From Bacteroidales bacterium (GTDB lineage: Bacteria; Bacteroidota; Bacteroidia; Bacteroidales; P3), in the NCBI GenBank assembly GCA_009785505.1, contig WQWA01000001.1:1-64000 (forward strand): a DNA stretch of 64,000 bases. The letters run 5' to 3'. Under the pieces are notes generated by a model. That model was not told the DNA's origin and searched no databases. It worked only from the letters and a program-made list of their open reading frames with translations. Of this stretch, positions 16,568 to 57,782 are shown piece after piece. Positions within the stretch are counted from its first letter, which is position 1, and every line of letters begins with the position of its first letter. The position numbers and the translations under genes are program-made.

Positions 16568-17917
16568 TTATTTTGGTTTTAACATTTTTATTATCCGCTC
16601 AACAACCTGATCAATATCCCCCGCACCCATCGTAACAAGCACATCGAGCGGTTGTGTTTTCAGTATTTTAAGTAAATTCGATTTCGTAGTCAAAATTTTA
16701 TTCGGACATGTACATTTTTCAAGTAAGATTTCGGAGCTGACACCTTCGATTGGAAGTTCTCTTGCCGGATAAATATCAAGTAAAATCAACGTATCGAGAA
16801 GCGACAAACTTTTTGCGAAATCATCAGCAAAATCACGTGTTCTCGAGTAAAGATGCGGTTGAAAGATGCCTGTAATTTTTCGATTTGGAAATAAACTTTT
16901 GACCGATTCTATACAGGCTTTAATTTCTTCCGGATGATGTGCATAATCGTCAATATAAATTAAATTGCCAGTTTTAATGTGAACATCAAAACGGCGTTTG
17001 ATGCCGGAAAATGTTTTCAATCCGTTACGAATTTCTGTTTCCGTTGCGCCCAACAAATGTGCCACAGCTACTGCTATCACTGCATTTTCAACATTGTGCA
17101 ATCCGGGATAAACCATTTTTAGATTTTTCCAATTGAAATCCGGTGCGTGAAAATCGAAATGATAAGTGCCATTTTCGACATGCAGATTTGAGGTGTAATA
17201 ATCAGCGTTTGTGTCTGTCAAATGATAGGTTTTATGAGCTTTTCCGAAATTCGGTGTTCCGTATTTTTGAAATAAAAAGCCGTTATGTGGAACTAAATTT
17301 GCGAATTCGGAAAAACTTTGTTCCATCGCATTTTTTGTACCGTAAATATCTAAATGATCAGCGTCAATTGATGAAATAACAGCGATTTGCGGATGTAGTT
17401 TCAAAAAAGAGCGATCGAATTCGTCAGCTTCAATAACAGCAATTTGCGATGTTTTTGATAAAATTAGATTGCTATTATAATTTTTTGCAATTCCGCCTAA
17501 AAATGCATTGCATTTTACTTCGGATTGTGTGAGCAAATGTGCAATAAGTGTAGAAATTGTAGTTTTTCCGTGAGTTCCGGCAATGCACACGCCAGTCATA
17601 TTTTGTGTGATCAATCCCAATATTTTCGAGCGTTTTAAAACAGGAATACCGGAGTTTTGCAAATGTACAAACTCCACATTATCTTTCGGGATAGCAGGCG
17701 TGTAAATGACTAAATCAATGTCTTTCGGAATTAAATTTACATCTTCAATATAGTGAACATCCATGCCTTCATTTTCCAATTCTTCACAAAGCGGTGTGCG
17801 TGTGCGATCATAGCCCGAAATTTTTACATTCTTTGATGCAAAAAATCGAGCCAAGGCGCTCATGCCGATACCGCCAATGCCAAGGAAATAGATATGTTTC
17901 AGCGTTTCGAAGTTCAT
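16568..17917 (-). CDS. murC: UDP-N-acetylmuramate--L-alanine ligase
   Basis: A 449-residue Mur ligase that adds L-Ala to UDP-MurNAc, the first peptide step. The N-terminal Rossmann motif is FLGIGGIGMSALARFF, the ATP P-loop GTHGKTT (about residue 115), the central domain VIEADEFDRSFL, and the C-terminal domain GIFQPHLYSRT and MGAGDID. The length is normal. It overlaps murG by 4 nt (ATGA), indicating translational coupling. Confidence 0.97.
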   Translation of the reverse strand: MNFETLKHIYFLGIGGIGMSALARFFASKNVKISGYDRTRTPLCEELENEGMDVHYIEDVNLIPKDIDLVIYTPAIPKDNVEFVHLQNSGIPVLKRSKILGLITQNMTGVCIAGTHGKTTISTLIAHLLTQSEVKCNAFLGGIAKNYNSNLILSKTSQIAVIEADEFDRSFLKLHPQIAVISSIDADHLDIYGTKNAMEQSFSEFANLVPHNGFLFQKYGTPNFGKAHKTYHLTDTNADYYTSNLHVENGTYHFDFHAPDFNWKNLKMVYPGLHNVENAVIAVAVAHLLGATETEIRNGLKTFSGIKRRFDVHIKTGNLIYIDDYAHHPEEIKACIESVKSLFPNRKITGIFQPHLYSRTRDFADDFAKSLSLLDTLILLDIYPARELPIEGVSSEILLEKCTCPNKILTTKSNLLKILKTQPLDVLVTMGAGDIDQVVERIIKMLKPK

Positions 17918-19113
17918 GGTTTTCTGATTTGGTCTATGATGTCGGCAATGCGTTCTACCGCATCGGTTTTAGCTAATTTTTTGATGTTTTCTGATAAACT
18001 ATTTTGTAACTCTGAATTGTTTAACAAATCTGAAATGGTTGAATGCAGTGATGTTCGAACATCTTTATCGGCAACCAACAGCCCAGCGTTTTGATTGACT
18101 AAAGCCATCGCATTTTTGGTTTGGTGATCTTCGGAAACATTGGGCGAAGGAATTAAAATCGCAGGTTTTCCGACTACACACAATTCTGAAATCGACAAAG
18201 CTCCCGCACGTGACACGATGAAATCCGCAATGCTGTATGCCAAATCCATTCGTGAAATGAATTGTGTAATGTGAATGTTTGGATATTTTTCCGTGTCAAC
18301 GGTTGAGATGTCAAAGTTTTTTCCGGTTTGCCAGATTACTTGTAAATCCATTTTTGTTAATTCGGGTAGCATGGCGGACAGACTTTCGTTGATTGTTCTT
18401 GCACCCAAACTACCACCGATAACAAGCAACGTTTTTTTTCTCGTCATTGCGAGCGAAGCGAAGCAATCTAAATCTGGGTTGCTTCGGGCATTCGCCCTCG
18501 CAATGACGTTGTCGTTAGCCTTGCTAGGAAAATTAAAATATTGTGTTGCCTCATCATATTTATTTTCCAAATTTGAAATATCTTGACGAATGGGATTACC
18601 TGTAAATACAATCTTTTCGGCAGGAAAAAACTTTTCCATACCATCGTATGCCACGCAGATTTTTTGCACTTTTTTGCTCAGAATTTTATTGGTAACTCCC
18701 GGATAAGAATTTTGTTCTTGAATCAAACACGGAATGCCTAATTTCGTTGCCATTTGCAAAGTCGGACCACTTGCATAACCGCCAACACCAATCACAACAT
18801 CGGGTTTAAATTCTTGAATAATTTTTTTCGCACGTTGCAAACTTTTCAAAAGCTTGAACGGAAATGAAAGGTTTTTCCAAGTCAAACGACGTTGAAAACC
18901 GGCAATATTCAAACCTTCGATGCGATAACCTGCCATAGGGACTTTTTCCATTTCCATACGTCCATTCGCACCGACAAATAAAATATCAGCATCAGCATGC
19001 CTCGCCTTGATAGCATTTGCTATTGCTATCGCCGGGAAAATATGCCCGCCTGTTCCGCCACCGCTGATGATTACCTTCGGTGAGCTCGCACTTCGTGCTT
19101 CGGTTGCTTTCAT
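17914..19113 (-). CDS. murG: Undecaprenyl-PP-MurNAc-pentapeptide GlcNAc transferase MurG with in-frame insertion
   Basis: Makes lipid II from lipid I at the inner face of the membrane. The N-terminal glycine loop is SGGGTGGHIFPA and the C-terminal loop LVIGGSLGARTINESL. At 399 residues it is about 30 longer than usual. The excess is residues about 197-225, including CFASLAMTR, translated from a palindromic repeat (18442-18508), and it lies just before the second glycine loop, at the join between the two Rossmann domains. The rest of the protein looks intact, so it may be functional. It follows a GNAT gene and overlaps murC. Confidence 0.93.
   Translation of the reverse strand: MKATEARSASSPKVIISGGGTGGHIFPAIAIANAIKARHADADILFVGANGRMEMEKVPMAGYRIEGLNIAGFQRRLTWKNLSFPFKLLKSLQRAKKIIQEFKPDVVIGVGGYASGPTLQMATKLGIPCLIQEQNSYPGVTNKILSKKVQKICVAYDGMEKFFPAEKIVFTGNPIRQDISNLENKYDEATQYFNFPSKANDNVIARANARSNPDLDCFASLAMTRKKTLLVIGGSLGARTINESLSAMLPELTKMDLQVIWQTGKNFDISTVDTEKYPNIHITQFISRMDLAYSIADFIVSRAGALSISELCVVGKPAILIPSPNVSEDHQTKNAMALVNQNAGLLVADKDVRTSLHSTISDLLNNSELQNSLSENIKKLAKTDAVERIADIIDQIRKP
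18442..18508. repeat. Palindromic element inserted in frame in murG
   Basis: 67 nt bounded by CGTCATTGCGAG (18442-18453) and CTCGCAATGACG (18497-18508), with inner inverted parts (GCGAAGC / GCTTCGGGC). The same ends occur at 45020-45113. With flanking bases it adds roughly 28 codons to murG without a stop. Confidence 0.9.
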
Positions 19114-19117
19114 TGTT

Positions 19118-19522
19118 TTAATTGTTGTTTGATACTTGAAAAACTGAACCTATTTTTTCATAACCTTGTTTTTTGTAGTACTCGTCCACATCGGACATCA
19201 CGTAAACCGTATGGTTTGGATAATCCTTGTAGATGCATTCCATCAATTGCCGTCCGATATGCTTACCTCTGTGTTTTGGAGCAACGAGCAAATCCACAAC
19301 CCACACCGCAATATGTCCATCAACGAAAGATCGCGAATAACCACAGATTTCGTTATTCTCATAAGCCACGTATGTCAGCGAATCGAGTAGCATTTTTTGA
19401 TACTTTTCTCTGACTTCGGGAGCCCAATAGGCTTTCCATTCTTCGCCTTCTGCTTCGATGATTTGCATTAGGGGTTCCTCGTCGGCGAGGGTGTATTTTT
19501 TTATTTCTATTTGGGATTTCAT
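19118..19522 (-). CDS. GNAT-family N-acetyltransferase
   Basis: A 134-residue protein with the GNAT acetyl-CoA motif A (VVDLLVAPKHRGKHIGRQLM) and a C-terminal strand YYKKQGYEKIGSVFQV. Substrate unknown. Its start overlaps the stop of the nuclease gene upstream by 4 nt. Its first 17 codons (MKSQIEIKKYTLADEE) are copied at the start of that nuclease gene. It belongs to a block of genes foreign to the dcw order. Confidence 0.88.
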   Translation of the reverse strand: MKSQIEIKKYTLADEEPLMQIIEAEGEEWKAYWAPEVREKYQKMLLDSLTYVAYENNEICGYSRSFVDGHIAVWVVDLLVAPKHRGKHIGRQLMECIYKDYPNHTVYVMSDVDEYYKKQGYEKIGSVFQVSNNN

Positions 19523-20610
19523 TGGATTGTTTGGTTGTTTGTCTCTAATTTTTGCTTTGCAATTTCAATGGCAGTTCTTAATTTTTGTTCAAGTAGCTTT
19601 TTATCGGGTAATTGCGTGAGGTAATCGGCGACTTTGATATTGCTGTTTTCTAATTGCAAAAGTTCGATATGTTCTTCGCTTTTGCCTGCACAAAGAATTA
19701 GTCCTATCGGCGAATTTTCTCCTTCTTGCTTTTCATATTTTTCAAGCCATTTCAAATAAAGTTCCATTTGTCCTTTGTAGGAGGCTTCAAACTTTCCGAG
19801 TTTAAGTTCTATAGCAACCAACGACTTCAACTTTCGGTGGAAAAATAGCAAGTCTAAATAATAATCTTCGTTATCTACACTTATCCTTTTTTGACGAGCC
19901 ATAAAAGCGAAATCACTACCCAATTCAGTAATAAAGTTCTGTAACTCCACAATAATAGATGTCTCCAAATCTTTTTCGGAATACTTGTCTTGCAATCCGA
20001 GAAAATCAAGAAAATAGGGGTCTCTAAACACTAGGTCGGGCGTTAGTTTTTGTTCGTTTTTTAACAATTCGAGGTCGTGTTTTATGGTTTCTTCGGGTTT
20101 TTTGCTGATTGCGGTTCGCTCGTAGAGCATTGAGTTTATCCGTTCTTCCAAAACTCTAACACTCCAGCGTTCCATTTTACACATTTCTATGTAAAATTCC
20201 CTTTTCAAGTCATCCTCAACATATTGAATAACTTTAATGTGGCTCCAACTCAATTGTCTCCACAGTGTAGAGACAATTTGAATATCGGGAAAAGTCTCCG
20301 CAATGCGGAGACAATGTCGCAAATGTTTTTCGCTCCAACCTCTGCCATATTGTTCCGTTAAGTGAACAGACAACAATTTTAGAATTGTTTTCCCATATTC
20401 TGCTCTTTTGTTTTGCAAAATATCGGTTTTTATTCTACTTCCGATTTGCCAATAGAGCATTGTCATCGTTGAATTTATCGCAACAGCAATTTGCTGTTTG
20501 CTTTGTTCTATCAGCGTTTTAATATCGACAAACAGGTTATCCTTAACAGGATTTTGCTTGCGTTCCTCATCGGCGAGGGTGTAGGGTTTTATGTTTGTTT
20601 CGGATTTCAT
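19519..20610 (-). CDS. DUF1016 / YhcG-type PDDEXK nuclease
   Basis: A 363-residue protein. The N-terminal DUF1016 domain (IKTLIEQSKQQIAVAINS to RWSVRVLEERINSMLYERT) is followed by the PDDEXK nuclease fold: catalytic YYLDLLFFHRKLKSLVAIELKLGKF (D...ExK). Family members are often found near restriction or toxin genes; the cellular role is unsettled. The first 17 residues (MKSETNIKPYTLADEER) are not typical of the family and closely match the start of the downstream GNAT, in DNA as well. So the reading frame probably captured a copied start. The natural family start would be near NLFVDIKTLIEQ. Confidence 0.9.
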   Translation of the reverse strand: MKSETNIKPYTLADEERKQNPVKDNLFVDIKTLIEQSKQQIAVAINSTMTMLYWQIGSRIKTDILQNKRAEYGKTILKLLSVHLTEQYGRGWSEKHLRHCLRIAETFPDIQIVSTLWRQLSWSHIKVIQYVEDDLKREFYIEMCKMERWSVRVLEERINSMLYERTAISKKPEETIKHDLELLKNEQKLTPDLVFRDPYFLDFLGLQDKYSEKDLETSIIVELQNFITELGSDFAFMARQKRISVDNEDYYLDLLFFHRKLKSLVAIELKLGKFEASYKGQMELYLKWLEKYEKQEGENSPIGLILCAGKSEEHIELLQLENSNIKVADYLTQLPDKKLLEQKLRTAIEIAKQKLETNNQTIQ

Positions 20611-38156: not shown

Positions 38157-38524
38157 TAGATAGCAATGTGTTGATTGATTTTTTGGCTGACAAACTTCCT
38201 CAAAAAGGTGCCGAATTTGTTAATGATGTTTTGGAAAAATCCTTCAAAATTTCTGTTATTTCTTACGTTGAAGTTTTAGGCTTCAACGAAAAAGTAGAAA
38301 AACAAGAGGCATTAGAGAGTTTTATGAGTATGGCAGAAGTGTTTTTTGTGGACGAAAAAATAGCAAAGCAAACTATTAAATTGAGGAAGCAAACGAAACT
38401 TAAACTTCCAGATGCTTTTATCACAGCAACAGCCATAGTAAACGATTTTGTTCTAATAACAAGAAACAAAAAAGATTTTGGCCGAATAGATCAAGTTAAA
38501 ATCGTAAATCCACATGAATTTTAA
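38138..38524 (+). CDS. PIN-domain ribonuclease toxin (VapC-like)
   Basis: A 128-residue PIN protein with the four acidic positions: DSNVLIDF (Asp), SYVEVLGF (Glu), LKLPDAFITA (Asp), and a more variable fourth site in RNKKDFGRID. The family cleaves RNA, often tRNA, when unbound by antitoxin. Its TAA overlaps the ATG of the ABC-F gene by one base. Confidence 0.93.
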   Translation: MAENYLIDSNVLIDFLADKLPQKGAEFVNDVLEKSFKISVISYVEVLGFNEKVEKQEALESFMSMAEVFFVDEKIAKQTIKLRKQTKLKLPDAFITATAIVNDFVLITRNKKDFGRIDQVKIVNPHEF

Positions 38525-40491
38525 TGCTTTCCGTAAATAATATCTCTGTTCAATTTTCCGGAAAAGATTTATTCAACGGCGTTTCGTTTATTATAGCAGA
38601 TAATGACCGTATAGGCTTGGCGGGAAAAAATGGTGCGGGAAAATCCACATTGCTAAAAATTTTAGCCAAACAAATGCAACCCGAAAGCGGTACAACCGTA
38701 ATCACTTCGGGACACACGATTGGCTATTTACCGCAAGAGATTATTCCGCATTCCACGCGAACCGTGATTGACGAGGCATTGACCGCATTTGAAGAAGCCT
38801 CAAAATTAGAAAAAAACATAGAAGATTTAACGCTCGAAATGAGCGAACGTACCGATTACGAATCCGAAGATTATCACAAACTCATGGTGCGTTTGCACGA
38901 AGCAAACGAACGTTATCACATCATTGGAGGTGCAAATAAACAAGCCGAAACAGAAAAAATCTTGTTGGGATTAGGCTTTAAGCACAGCGATTTTTCAAGA
39001 AAAATCAGCGAATTTAGTTCGGGATGGCAAATGCGTGTGGAATTGGCAAAAATTTTGTTGCAACGCCCGAATGTAATGTTGTTGGATGAGCCTACAAACC
39101 ACTTGGATATCGAGTCGATTCAATGGTTGGAAACGTTTTTGCAAAACTATGAGGGCGCTGTGGTTTTGGTTTCTCACGACCGTGCATTTTTGGATACAGT
39201 CACGAAACGAACAATAGAAATTGTGCTTGGAAAAATCGAGGATTACAAAGCCTCGTATTCCGAATACATTGTTCAACGTGAAGAACGGCGTCGTACGCAA
39301 ATCAACGCATACAACAATCAGCAAAAAGAAATCGCAGATATGGAGCGGTTTGTCGAGCGTTTTCGAGCCAAAGCCACCAAAGCCCGACAGGCTCAATCGC
39401 GAATTAAGTTGCTCGATAAAATGGAGCGTATCGAAATTGATGAAGTCGATACATCAACGATGCACTTTAGATTTCCGCCGGCACCACACGCCGGAAAAGT
39501 TGTTGTCGAAGTGGAAAATGTCGTAAAAAAATACGGCGAAAATTTGGTTCTGGACGGCATCGATTTAATGCTTGAACGTGGCGAAAAAATAGCATTTGTC
39601 GGCAAAAACGGCGAGGGAAAATCTACGCTTTCCAAAATTATCATGGACGAAATTCCTTTTGACGGAATCGCTCGTTTGGGACATCAAGTGCAAGTCGGAT
39701 ATTTTGCACAAAATCAAGCGACTTTGCTTGATGGCAATAAAACTGTTTTTGAAACTATAGACGAAGTTGCCGTTGGAGATGTCCGCCCGAGAATCAGAAA
39801 TATTTTAGGTACATTTTTGTTTGGCGGAGAGGATATCAACAAAAAAGTAAAAGTGCTCTCCGGTGGCGAAAAAATGCGTTTGGCATTAGCCAAATTGTTG
39901 CTGGCTCCCGTGAATTTATTGGTTTTGGACGAGCCTACAAATCATTTAGATATGCGTTCGAAAGATGTATTGAAAATGGCGTTGCTCAAATACAACGGTG
40001 CAATGATTTTGGTTTCGCACGATCGAGATTTTTTGCAAGGTTTGACAGATAAAGTTTACGAATTTAAAGACAAAAAAGTAAAAATGCACATCGGCGATAT
40101 TTACGAATTTTTGGAATCGCGAAATATCGAAAATTTGAATGAACTGAATCGTGTAAGAACAGACAAGGTCGTTGAGCATAGTCGAAACGCCCTTGTCCGC
40201 AACAACAGTGGCACGGGCGCTTCGACAAGCTCAGCGACCGTGCCACAACAATCCACCGCCGAACAAGACCGCCAAAAAAAGAAAGACCAAGAACGCGAAC
40301 AACGCCGTCGTCAAAATCAAATCGAAAAATTAGAAACAGAAATTGAACTTTTGGAACAAAAAAAATCAGAAATGGACGAGCTCCTATCCAATCCCGAAAA
40401 CATTTCAAACAGCCAAATTTTCATTGACTATAACAAACTGAAACAAAAAATCGACAAGGCCATGTCCGACTGGGAGAAATTACATGTGTAG
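38524..40491 (+). CDS. ABC-F family ATPase with repeat insertion in linker
   Basis: A 655-residue soluble protein with two ABC domains: Walker A GLAGKNGAGKSTLLK and VGKNGEGKSTLSK, signatures LSGGEKMRLALAK (second) and a degenerate one in FSSGWQMRVELAK, Walker B MLLDEPTNHLD and LVLDEPTNHLD. Between them the arm/linker (residues about 250-330). ABC-F proteins act on the ribosome (Uup/EttA-like). The C-terminus is a charged coiled coil as in Uup. Residues about 548-575 (VVEHSRNALV...STSSATVPQ) come from a head-to-head palindromic repeat at 40162-40246. It may be co-transcribed with the toxin-antitoxin genes. The stop is TAG. Confidence 0.94.
   Translation: MLSVNNISVQFSGKDLFNGVSFIIADNDRIGLAGKNGAGKSTLLKILAKQMQPESGTTVITSGHTIGYLPQEIIPHSTRTVIDEALTAFEEASKLEKNIEDLTLEMSERTDYESEDYHKLMVRLHEANERYHIIGGANKQAETEKILLGLGFKHSDFSRKISEFSSGWQMRVELAKILLQRPNVMLLDEPTNHLDIESIQWLETFLQNYEGAVVLVSHDRAFLDTVTKRTIEIVLGKIEDYKASYSEYIVQREERRRTQINAYNNQQKEIADMERFVERFRAKATKARQAQSRIKLLDKMERIEIDEVDTSTMHFRFPPAPHAGKVVVEVENVVKKYGENLVLDGIDLMLERGEKIAFVGKNGEGKSTLSKIIMDEIPFDGIARLGHQVQVGYFAQNQATLLDGNKTVFETIDEVAVGDVRPRIRNILGTFLFGGEDINKKVKVLSGGEKMRLALAKLLLAPVNLLVLDEPTNHLDMRSKDVLKMALLKYNGAMILVSHDRDFLQGLTDKVYEFKDKKVKMHIGDIYEFLESRNIENLNELNRVRTDKVVEHSRNALVRNNSGTGASTSSATVPQQSTAEQDRQKKKDQEREQRRRQNQIEKLETEIELLEQKKSEMDELLSNPENISNSQIFIDYNKLKQKIDKAMSDWEKLHV
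40162..40246. repeat. Head-to-head palindromic repeat inside the ABC-F gene
   Basis: GACAAGG...CCTTGTC (40162-40197) and GTGGCACGG...CCGTGCCAC (40208-40246). The core of the first (GGTCGTTGAGCATAGTCGAA) is the near reverse complement of the second (TTCGACAAGCTCAGCGACC). The open frame passes through both units without a stop. Confidence 0.85.
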
Positions 40492-40506: not shown

Positions 40507-40534
40507 CGTCATTCCCGCCTTCGCGGGAATGACG
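40507..40534. repeat. Short palindromic repeat downstream of the ABC-F gene
   Basis: CGTCATTCCCGC, loop CTTC, GCGGGAATGACG. The minimal form of the repeat at 32746. With little T-run it is a poor terminator. Confidence 0.8.
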
Positions 40535-45019: not shown

Positions 45020-45113
45020 CTCGTCATTGCGAGCCCCTCGGCTTTGCTCGGGATAAACTCCGCGAAGCAATCTATATTGCTTGCTTCGGCACGCTGTGCC
45101 TCGCAATGACGAG
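45020..45113. repeat. Intergenic palindromic element, CGTCATTGCGAG family
   Basis: Ends CTCGTCATTGCGAG (45020-45033) and CTCGCAATGACGAG (45100-45113), inner inverted parts CCTCGGCTTTGCTCGG and GCGAAGC...GCTTCGG. Full-size relative of the element inserted in murG. Confidence 0.85.
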
Positions 45114-57753: not shown

Positions 57754-57782
57754 GTAGGGGCAGGTTTCAAACCTGCCCCTAC
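57754..57782. repeat. GTAGGGGC...GCCCCTAC hairpin between Big2 and subtilase genes
   Basis: A 29-nt near-perfect inverted repeat GTAGGGGCAGGTTT / AAACCTGCCCCTAC around one base. Its arms are like the hairpin after pdxS at 272. It precedes the subtilase ATG at 57802 by 19 nt and could affect translation. Confidence 0.8.

Follow-up and report, generated by a model that had tools for sequence, protein, structure and literature searches.

The window analysed here comprises 64,000 nucleotides of G000, a 1.83-Mb MAG of an uncultured member of the Bacteroidales. On its reverse strand, the window carries a murG gene whose reading frame is lengthened by a palindromic element with CGTC tags (Table 1). 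The identity of the gene is given by a match to TIGR01133 (303 bits; cut-off, 250), with which both the closest solved chains and the fold of the model agree. The 12-mer CGTCATTGCGAG is located at 18442-18453 on the forward strand and, inverted, at 18497-18508, and these two copies are the ends of the element. As single-stranded DNA, the 67 nucleotides fold with -22.5 kcal/mol (z -7.1), a value that none of the shuffled sequences equalled. An original prediction, made from the letters of this DNA, had placed the element and its inverted ends correctly and had expected about 28 added residues. The insertion is indeed in frame; compared with the empty site of the congener G003, however, the net gain is 81 nt, or 27 residues, of which about 23 are encoded by the element proper and the remainder by the stretch that adjoins it. 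A second intact murG was looked for, and the genome (92% complete) holds just one. A search of positions 18000-19000 against Rfam gave no matches, and a literature search with the DNA end sequence and the encoded peptides found nothing relevant. The gene lies in a cell-wall gene region; directly upstream (19118-20610, reverse strand) are a GNAT acetyltransferase-like ORF and a possible DUF1016/PDDEXK nuclease-like ORF.

Table 1. Position of murG, its insert and related palindromes in the window.
Position	Strand	Feature
17914..19113	-	murG, single copy, 399 aa; the element corresponds to residues about 202-224
18442..18508	-	CGTC-tagged palindromic element in murG, 67 bp, head-out dimer, in-frame peptide NVIARANARSNPDLDCFASLAMT
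18509..18528 (about)	-	Additional stretch adjoining the element, coding strand CCTAGCAAGGCTAACGACAA, missing from the empty-site allele
40507..40534		Second CGTC-tagged hairpin, CGTCATTCCCGCCTTCGCGGGAATGACG, 16 bp past the ABC-F stop codon, similar to elements in congener genes
45022..45111	.	Intergenic copy of the family, 90 bp, with a different inner part
57754..57782		Perfect GTAG palindrome of 29 bp, whose superfamily also fills the murG site in G001 and G002

The repeat family and its copies in genes

The element is one of a dispersed palindromic family, as had been proposed. In G000, CGTCATTGCGAG is matched exactly at 70 places (reversed control, 0), and delimiting the elements around these matches gave at least 47 full copies, 67-112 bp long; degenerate copies may escape this procedure. 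The intergenic recurrence noted at 45020-45113 is one such copy. CGTC/GACG, or near variants, are found at both termini of the delimited copies, and the tags point outward at both ends (the head-out or HH arrangement) in 47 copies, in a search that itself required both ends. A single unit folds into an outer stem of 4-5 bp and an inner hairpin, the CGTC tag being left unpaired. CAATCCA/TGGATTG, a candidate for the short CCA tail of CGTC-tagged REPs, is found in many copies and is degenerate in that of murG. Some copies are nested or composite, one CGTC element starting inside or beside another (near C18 13826-13959, C15 4624-4720, and C8 19242-19349 of G000). Within the window, the ABC-F ATPase gene (38524-40491, forward strand) contains near 40220 a dispersed-looking motif, CTTCGACAAGCTCAGC, in frame in the C-terminal linker (GTGASTSSATVPQQS); several CGTC copies have a close variant of this motif as their inner part.

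Sixteen conserved genes of G000 have an open copy in frame with homologous protein on both sides. These are murG, a TrmH-type methyltransferase, aroE, mnmE, an LD-carboxypeptidase, gcvP, mutY, uvrA, a protein on C3, murF-alr, an ABC permease (abcP), queG, a nucleotidyltransferase, purL, purH, and mfd (all names except murG were assigned by reading the sequences, with no family search). An HsdM-like protein has an additional copy close to its C-terminus. A common reading frame, that starting CGT CAT TGC GAG (RHCE), is used by 14 of the 16 genic copies, while the murG copy stands outside it, being read, like that of queG, in the minority frame xxC GTC ATT. From the openness of intergenic copies, 41% would be predicted in the RHCE frame (p = 1.7e-4); among the genic survivors, one frame strongly predominates, beyond what openness explains. 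The idea that the element may be selected to stay open finds no support in these data: intergenic copies are open in the RHCE frame in 27 of 60 readings (45%), little above shuffled copies (34%), and murG itself uses the minority frame. The ABC permease gene (C4:75500-78500 of G000) contains two CGTC palindromes of different families and an SLSLSKRP-type segment, all of them in frame.

Tolerance of the insert in MurG

Outside the genus, the stretch of MurG from GNPxR to GGSxG (both motifs counted) has a nearly fixed length: 22 of the 26 murGs have 39 residues there, three have 43, and the last has 53. The same stretch has 39 residues in the congener G003 and 66 in the window allele. The dN/dS ratios of the window allele against its congeners are 0.105-0.122, compared with 0.097-0.110 among the congeners, and murG is under equal purifying constraint with or without the insert. 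In the MurG model, residues 201-223 are the sole internal segment with a pLDDT below 50 (the N-terminus is also below 50); this segment coincides with residues 202-224 of the element, and the insert is predicted to be disordered. The MurG fold is kept (Z 38.5 against 3s2u, 325 aligned residues, rmsd 2.4), and the insert is positioned right before the first strand of the C-terminal domain. Enzymes with a fold of this type bind their substrates at the opposite, C-terminal strand ends, which makes tolerance of the insertion plausible. Constraint (dN/dS about 0.11, as in other alleles) and model (low pLDDT limited to the insert and the N-terminus) are both in line with the original prediction that the insertion is tolerated. 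An artefact of assembly or binning, in which short-read MAG assembly put a repeat into murG, deserves practically no weight and is largely refuted. The five genomes of the genus are all drafts with many contigs, but the frame is kept on both sides in 16 of 16 genes, murG is under purifying selection, and in-frame inserts are present at the same loops in four other assemblies.

Different palindromes at the same loops

Relatives that have the inserted stretch with no resemblance to repeats, which would have told against the original prediction, were not seen: at the murG site, the relatives have either an empty site or a different dispersed palindrome. The murG of G001 contains GTAGGGGCGAGGTTCACCCTCGCCC and that of G002 GTAGGGGCGTATCGCATACGCCC; both palindromes (GTAGGGGCG) are GTAG-tagged units, with stems of 8 bp and loops of 3-5 nt, and the pattern of the GTAG family is matched 62-134 times per genome in five genomes of the genus (reversed control, 0). 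No murG was found in G004 (71% complete). In the concatenated tree, G000 is grouped with G004, and G003 with the pair G001 and G002 (supports 70 and 92). On this tree, the empty murG site of G003 points either to two or more independent gains or to one gain combined with a replacement and a loss.

The same is seen in other genes. A different tagged palindrome (GTAG or another CGTC type) is present in one or more congeners at 10 of the 16 sites, the genes being murG, aroE, gcvP, mutY, uvrA, the C3 protein, the ABC permease, purL, purH, and mfd; counting any tag, 11 of the 16 genes bear one among the congeners. For instance, purH of G002 has a perfect palindrome, GTAGAGACGCACGGCCGTGCGTCTCTAC, whose pattern is found at 50 places in that genome, aroE of G004 has CGTCATTCTCGCGAAGGCGGGAATC, whose core is matched 34 times in G004, and GTAG dimers occur in mfd of G004 and mutY of G001. 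In mnmE, large in-frame inserts are present at one site in all five species of the genus, that of G003 being non-palindromic and containing direct repeats of ACGAATT. The folC site is filled in G000 and in G001 and G002, and empty in G003 and G004; a site in an RND transporter is filled in G001 and G003, and empty in G002. For both genes, separate gains are the simplest reading.

The 16 sites of G000 were compared with their orthologues in G001-G004, i.e., 57 alleles and about 263 equal flank windows of the same alleles. A tagged element (GTAG or CGTC) is present at the site in 19 of the 57 congener alleles vs 6 of the flanks (Fisher p = 3e-11, an overstated value, as the alleles of related species are non-independent). 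Tag counting against flanks was preferred to a single-stem palindrome test, which was weak, the stems of many elements being interrupted. A reverse test, meant to be free of the bias towards G000, was done with ten GTAG insertions that G001 has in conserved genes, in which a tag was found at the site in 12 of 30 alleles vs 3 of about 151 flank windows (p = 1.6e-8), some of the shared sites being inherited in the sister species G002. Untagged length changes likewise cluster at the compared sites, as expected of permissive loops. In an unbiased comparison of the window's syntenic portion (5452 residues aligned with G001 and 4474 with G003), a palindromic insertion of at least 6 residues is found in murG only, which indicates that such insertions are rare per residue.

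We consider it very probable that a dispersed non-autonomous CGTC palindrome has inserted in frame in murG, and that the surviving insertions are limited to tolerant loops in which palindromes accumulate. Copies would land at many places, a genome-encoded HUH (Y1/RAYT-like) transposase probably moving them in trans. Insertions that break a protein would be lost, and the survivors would be those in surface loops, stop-free and in the frame with the best-tolerated peptide. Because few loops would tolerate 10-40 extra residues, different palindromes would accumulate at the same loops across species, and the translated peptide would have no function of its own. A frame bias that exceeds stop avoidance might instead suggest that a beneficial peptide, e.g., a regulatory or interaction segment, retains the palindromes in the loops; this is very improbable in view of the congeners with empty sites, the unrelated peptides at one site, and the predicted disorder of the MurG insert.

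Simple independent insertion does not predict the exact junctions shared by G000 and G004 in aroE and abcP, where the right-hand junction is identical to the nucleotide and the elements are different. In these two genes, the interior may have been exchanged, or an element may have re-inserted at the same point. Exchange might even be the rule, with one ancestral insertion per loop and an interior that is replaced, through the common tagged ends, by recombination or template switching with dispersed copies. It would fit the different CGTC elements at the identical aroE and abcP junctions, the gcvP alleles, in which the inner hairpins differ between CGTCATTGCGAG ends, the nested and composite copies, and the stems of GTAG elements, which differ between species at shared sites. 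Even so, we judge it unlikely, though a serious contender, as GTAG and CGTC elements have no ends in common and yet have common sites (murG, mutY, uvrA, purH, and mfd), and as the species tree favours separate gains in folC, the RND transporter, and mutY (G002 has no tagged element there). The same nucleotide-precise junctions could also arise at a hotspot set by the machinery, if a transposase recognised its target (an existing hairpin or a short motif) and recurrence were due to targeting, beyond tolerance. Nested elements would agree with this, and some published REP dimers lie inside other palindromes (PMC3733652). No common motif was seen, however, when the 16 junctions were inspected by eye, and within a loop the GTAG and CGTC junctions are several nucleotides apart, so that a hotspot of this kind is quite improbable.

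Retention in tolerant loops remains the preferred reading, and, with different palindromes at the same sites in sister species, a small number of protein loops seem to serve mobile DNA as common points of landing. A bolder version, which we find conceivable but on balance doubtful, is that a few permissive loops of core enzymes are genus-wide docking sites, on which unrelated families land or swap interiors with fixed junctions. If so, these loops would diversify via the turnover of mobile DNA, beyond point mutation alone. The genus has palindromes in many essential and core enzymes, and sister species differ in whether, and with which palindrome, an allele is filled; this natural experiment reveals insertion-tolerant protein loops. 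The pairs of filled and empty alleles are also material for studying the mobilisation of CGTC repeats, and the insert-bearing core genes will upset the annotation and alignments of such genomes.

Mobilisation and relation to known repeats

Seven Y1_Tnp matches are found in G000, five of them full-length. No CGTC unit lies within about 1.3 kb of any of the five full-length loci, and the Y1_Tnp loci were rejected as CGTC REPtrons, with 0 full-length loci flanked by a CGTC unit; a Y1_Tnp fragment on C27 has one CGTC copy about 1.1 kb away. G001 has the palindromes and 0 Y1_Tnp matches. The presence of Y1_Tnp genes in G000 speaks for the preferred reading; the lack of flanking CGTC units and the case of G001 speak against it. 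The transposase context in G000 agrees with the published statement that CGTC repeats occur without a dedicated transposase (PMC3733652). Target-site duplications were sought and none was legible in the flanks, which are too diverged; genic copy lengths of 0 and 1 mod 3 both occur, which indicates that there is no fixed duplication length. In G002, two Y1_Tnp genes have CGTCCCTAC (reverse complement GTAGGGACG) nearby, which may be a GTAG REPtron.

Translated genic palindromes were hitherto best known from Rickettsia and Wolbachia. RPEs have been found in 19 Rickettsia reading frames, and a Gmk with an insert is translated and active (PMC2229807); the RPE-1 type was described by Ogata et al. 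(2000), according to a passage of PMC2229807. The parallel with the Rickettsia palindromic elements drawn in the original prediction holds, as in-frame palindromes are found here in 16 conserved genes, the essential murG among them, their translation being predicted from sequence. Unlike RPE-1, the elements described here belong to another phylum and are 67-112 bp long instead of 105-146 bp, a comparison made by length. Two other Rickettsia types, RPE-4 and RPE-6, are themselves CGTC types (PMC3733652).

GTAG and CGTC palindromes are present in more than 80 species, the CGTC types including those of Bacteroidetes, and genes with reported copies include uvrA (Di Nocera et al., 2013, PMC3733652). 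The window element is a variant of these known CGTC repeats, with which it shares the CGTC tag, HH dimers, dispersal, and genic copies (including uvrA) without a flanking transposase gene; in-frame palindromes, too, were already known. It differs from CGTC families 1-4 in its outer stem of 4-5 bp with an inner hairpin, where theirs is a stem of 8-9 bp with a loop of 4-5 nt. The characters of GTAG REPs (5-13 bp stem, short loop, and many copies) are those of the murG inserts of G001 and G002, not of the window element. Beyond what is described for CGTC-tagged REPs, the same loops are re-used here by other palindromes across the genus. In a search limited to open papers, the only precedent found for such genus-wide re-use by unrelated palindromes was recB of two Xanthomonas species, X. 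campestris and X. oryzae, which have different REPs at about the same site (PMC3733652). A single gene is concerned there, while here it is 10 of the 16 sampled sites, confirmed by sampling from another species.
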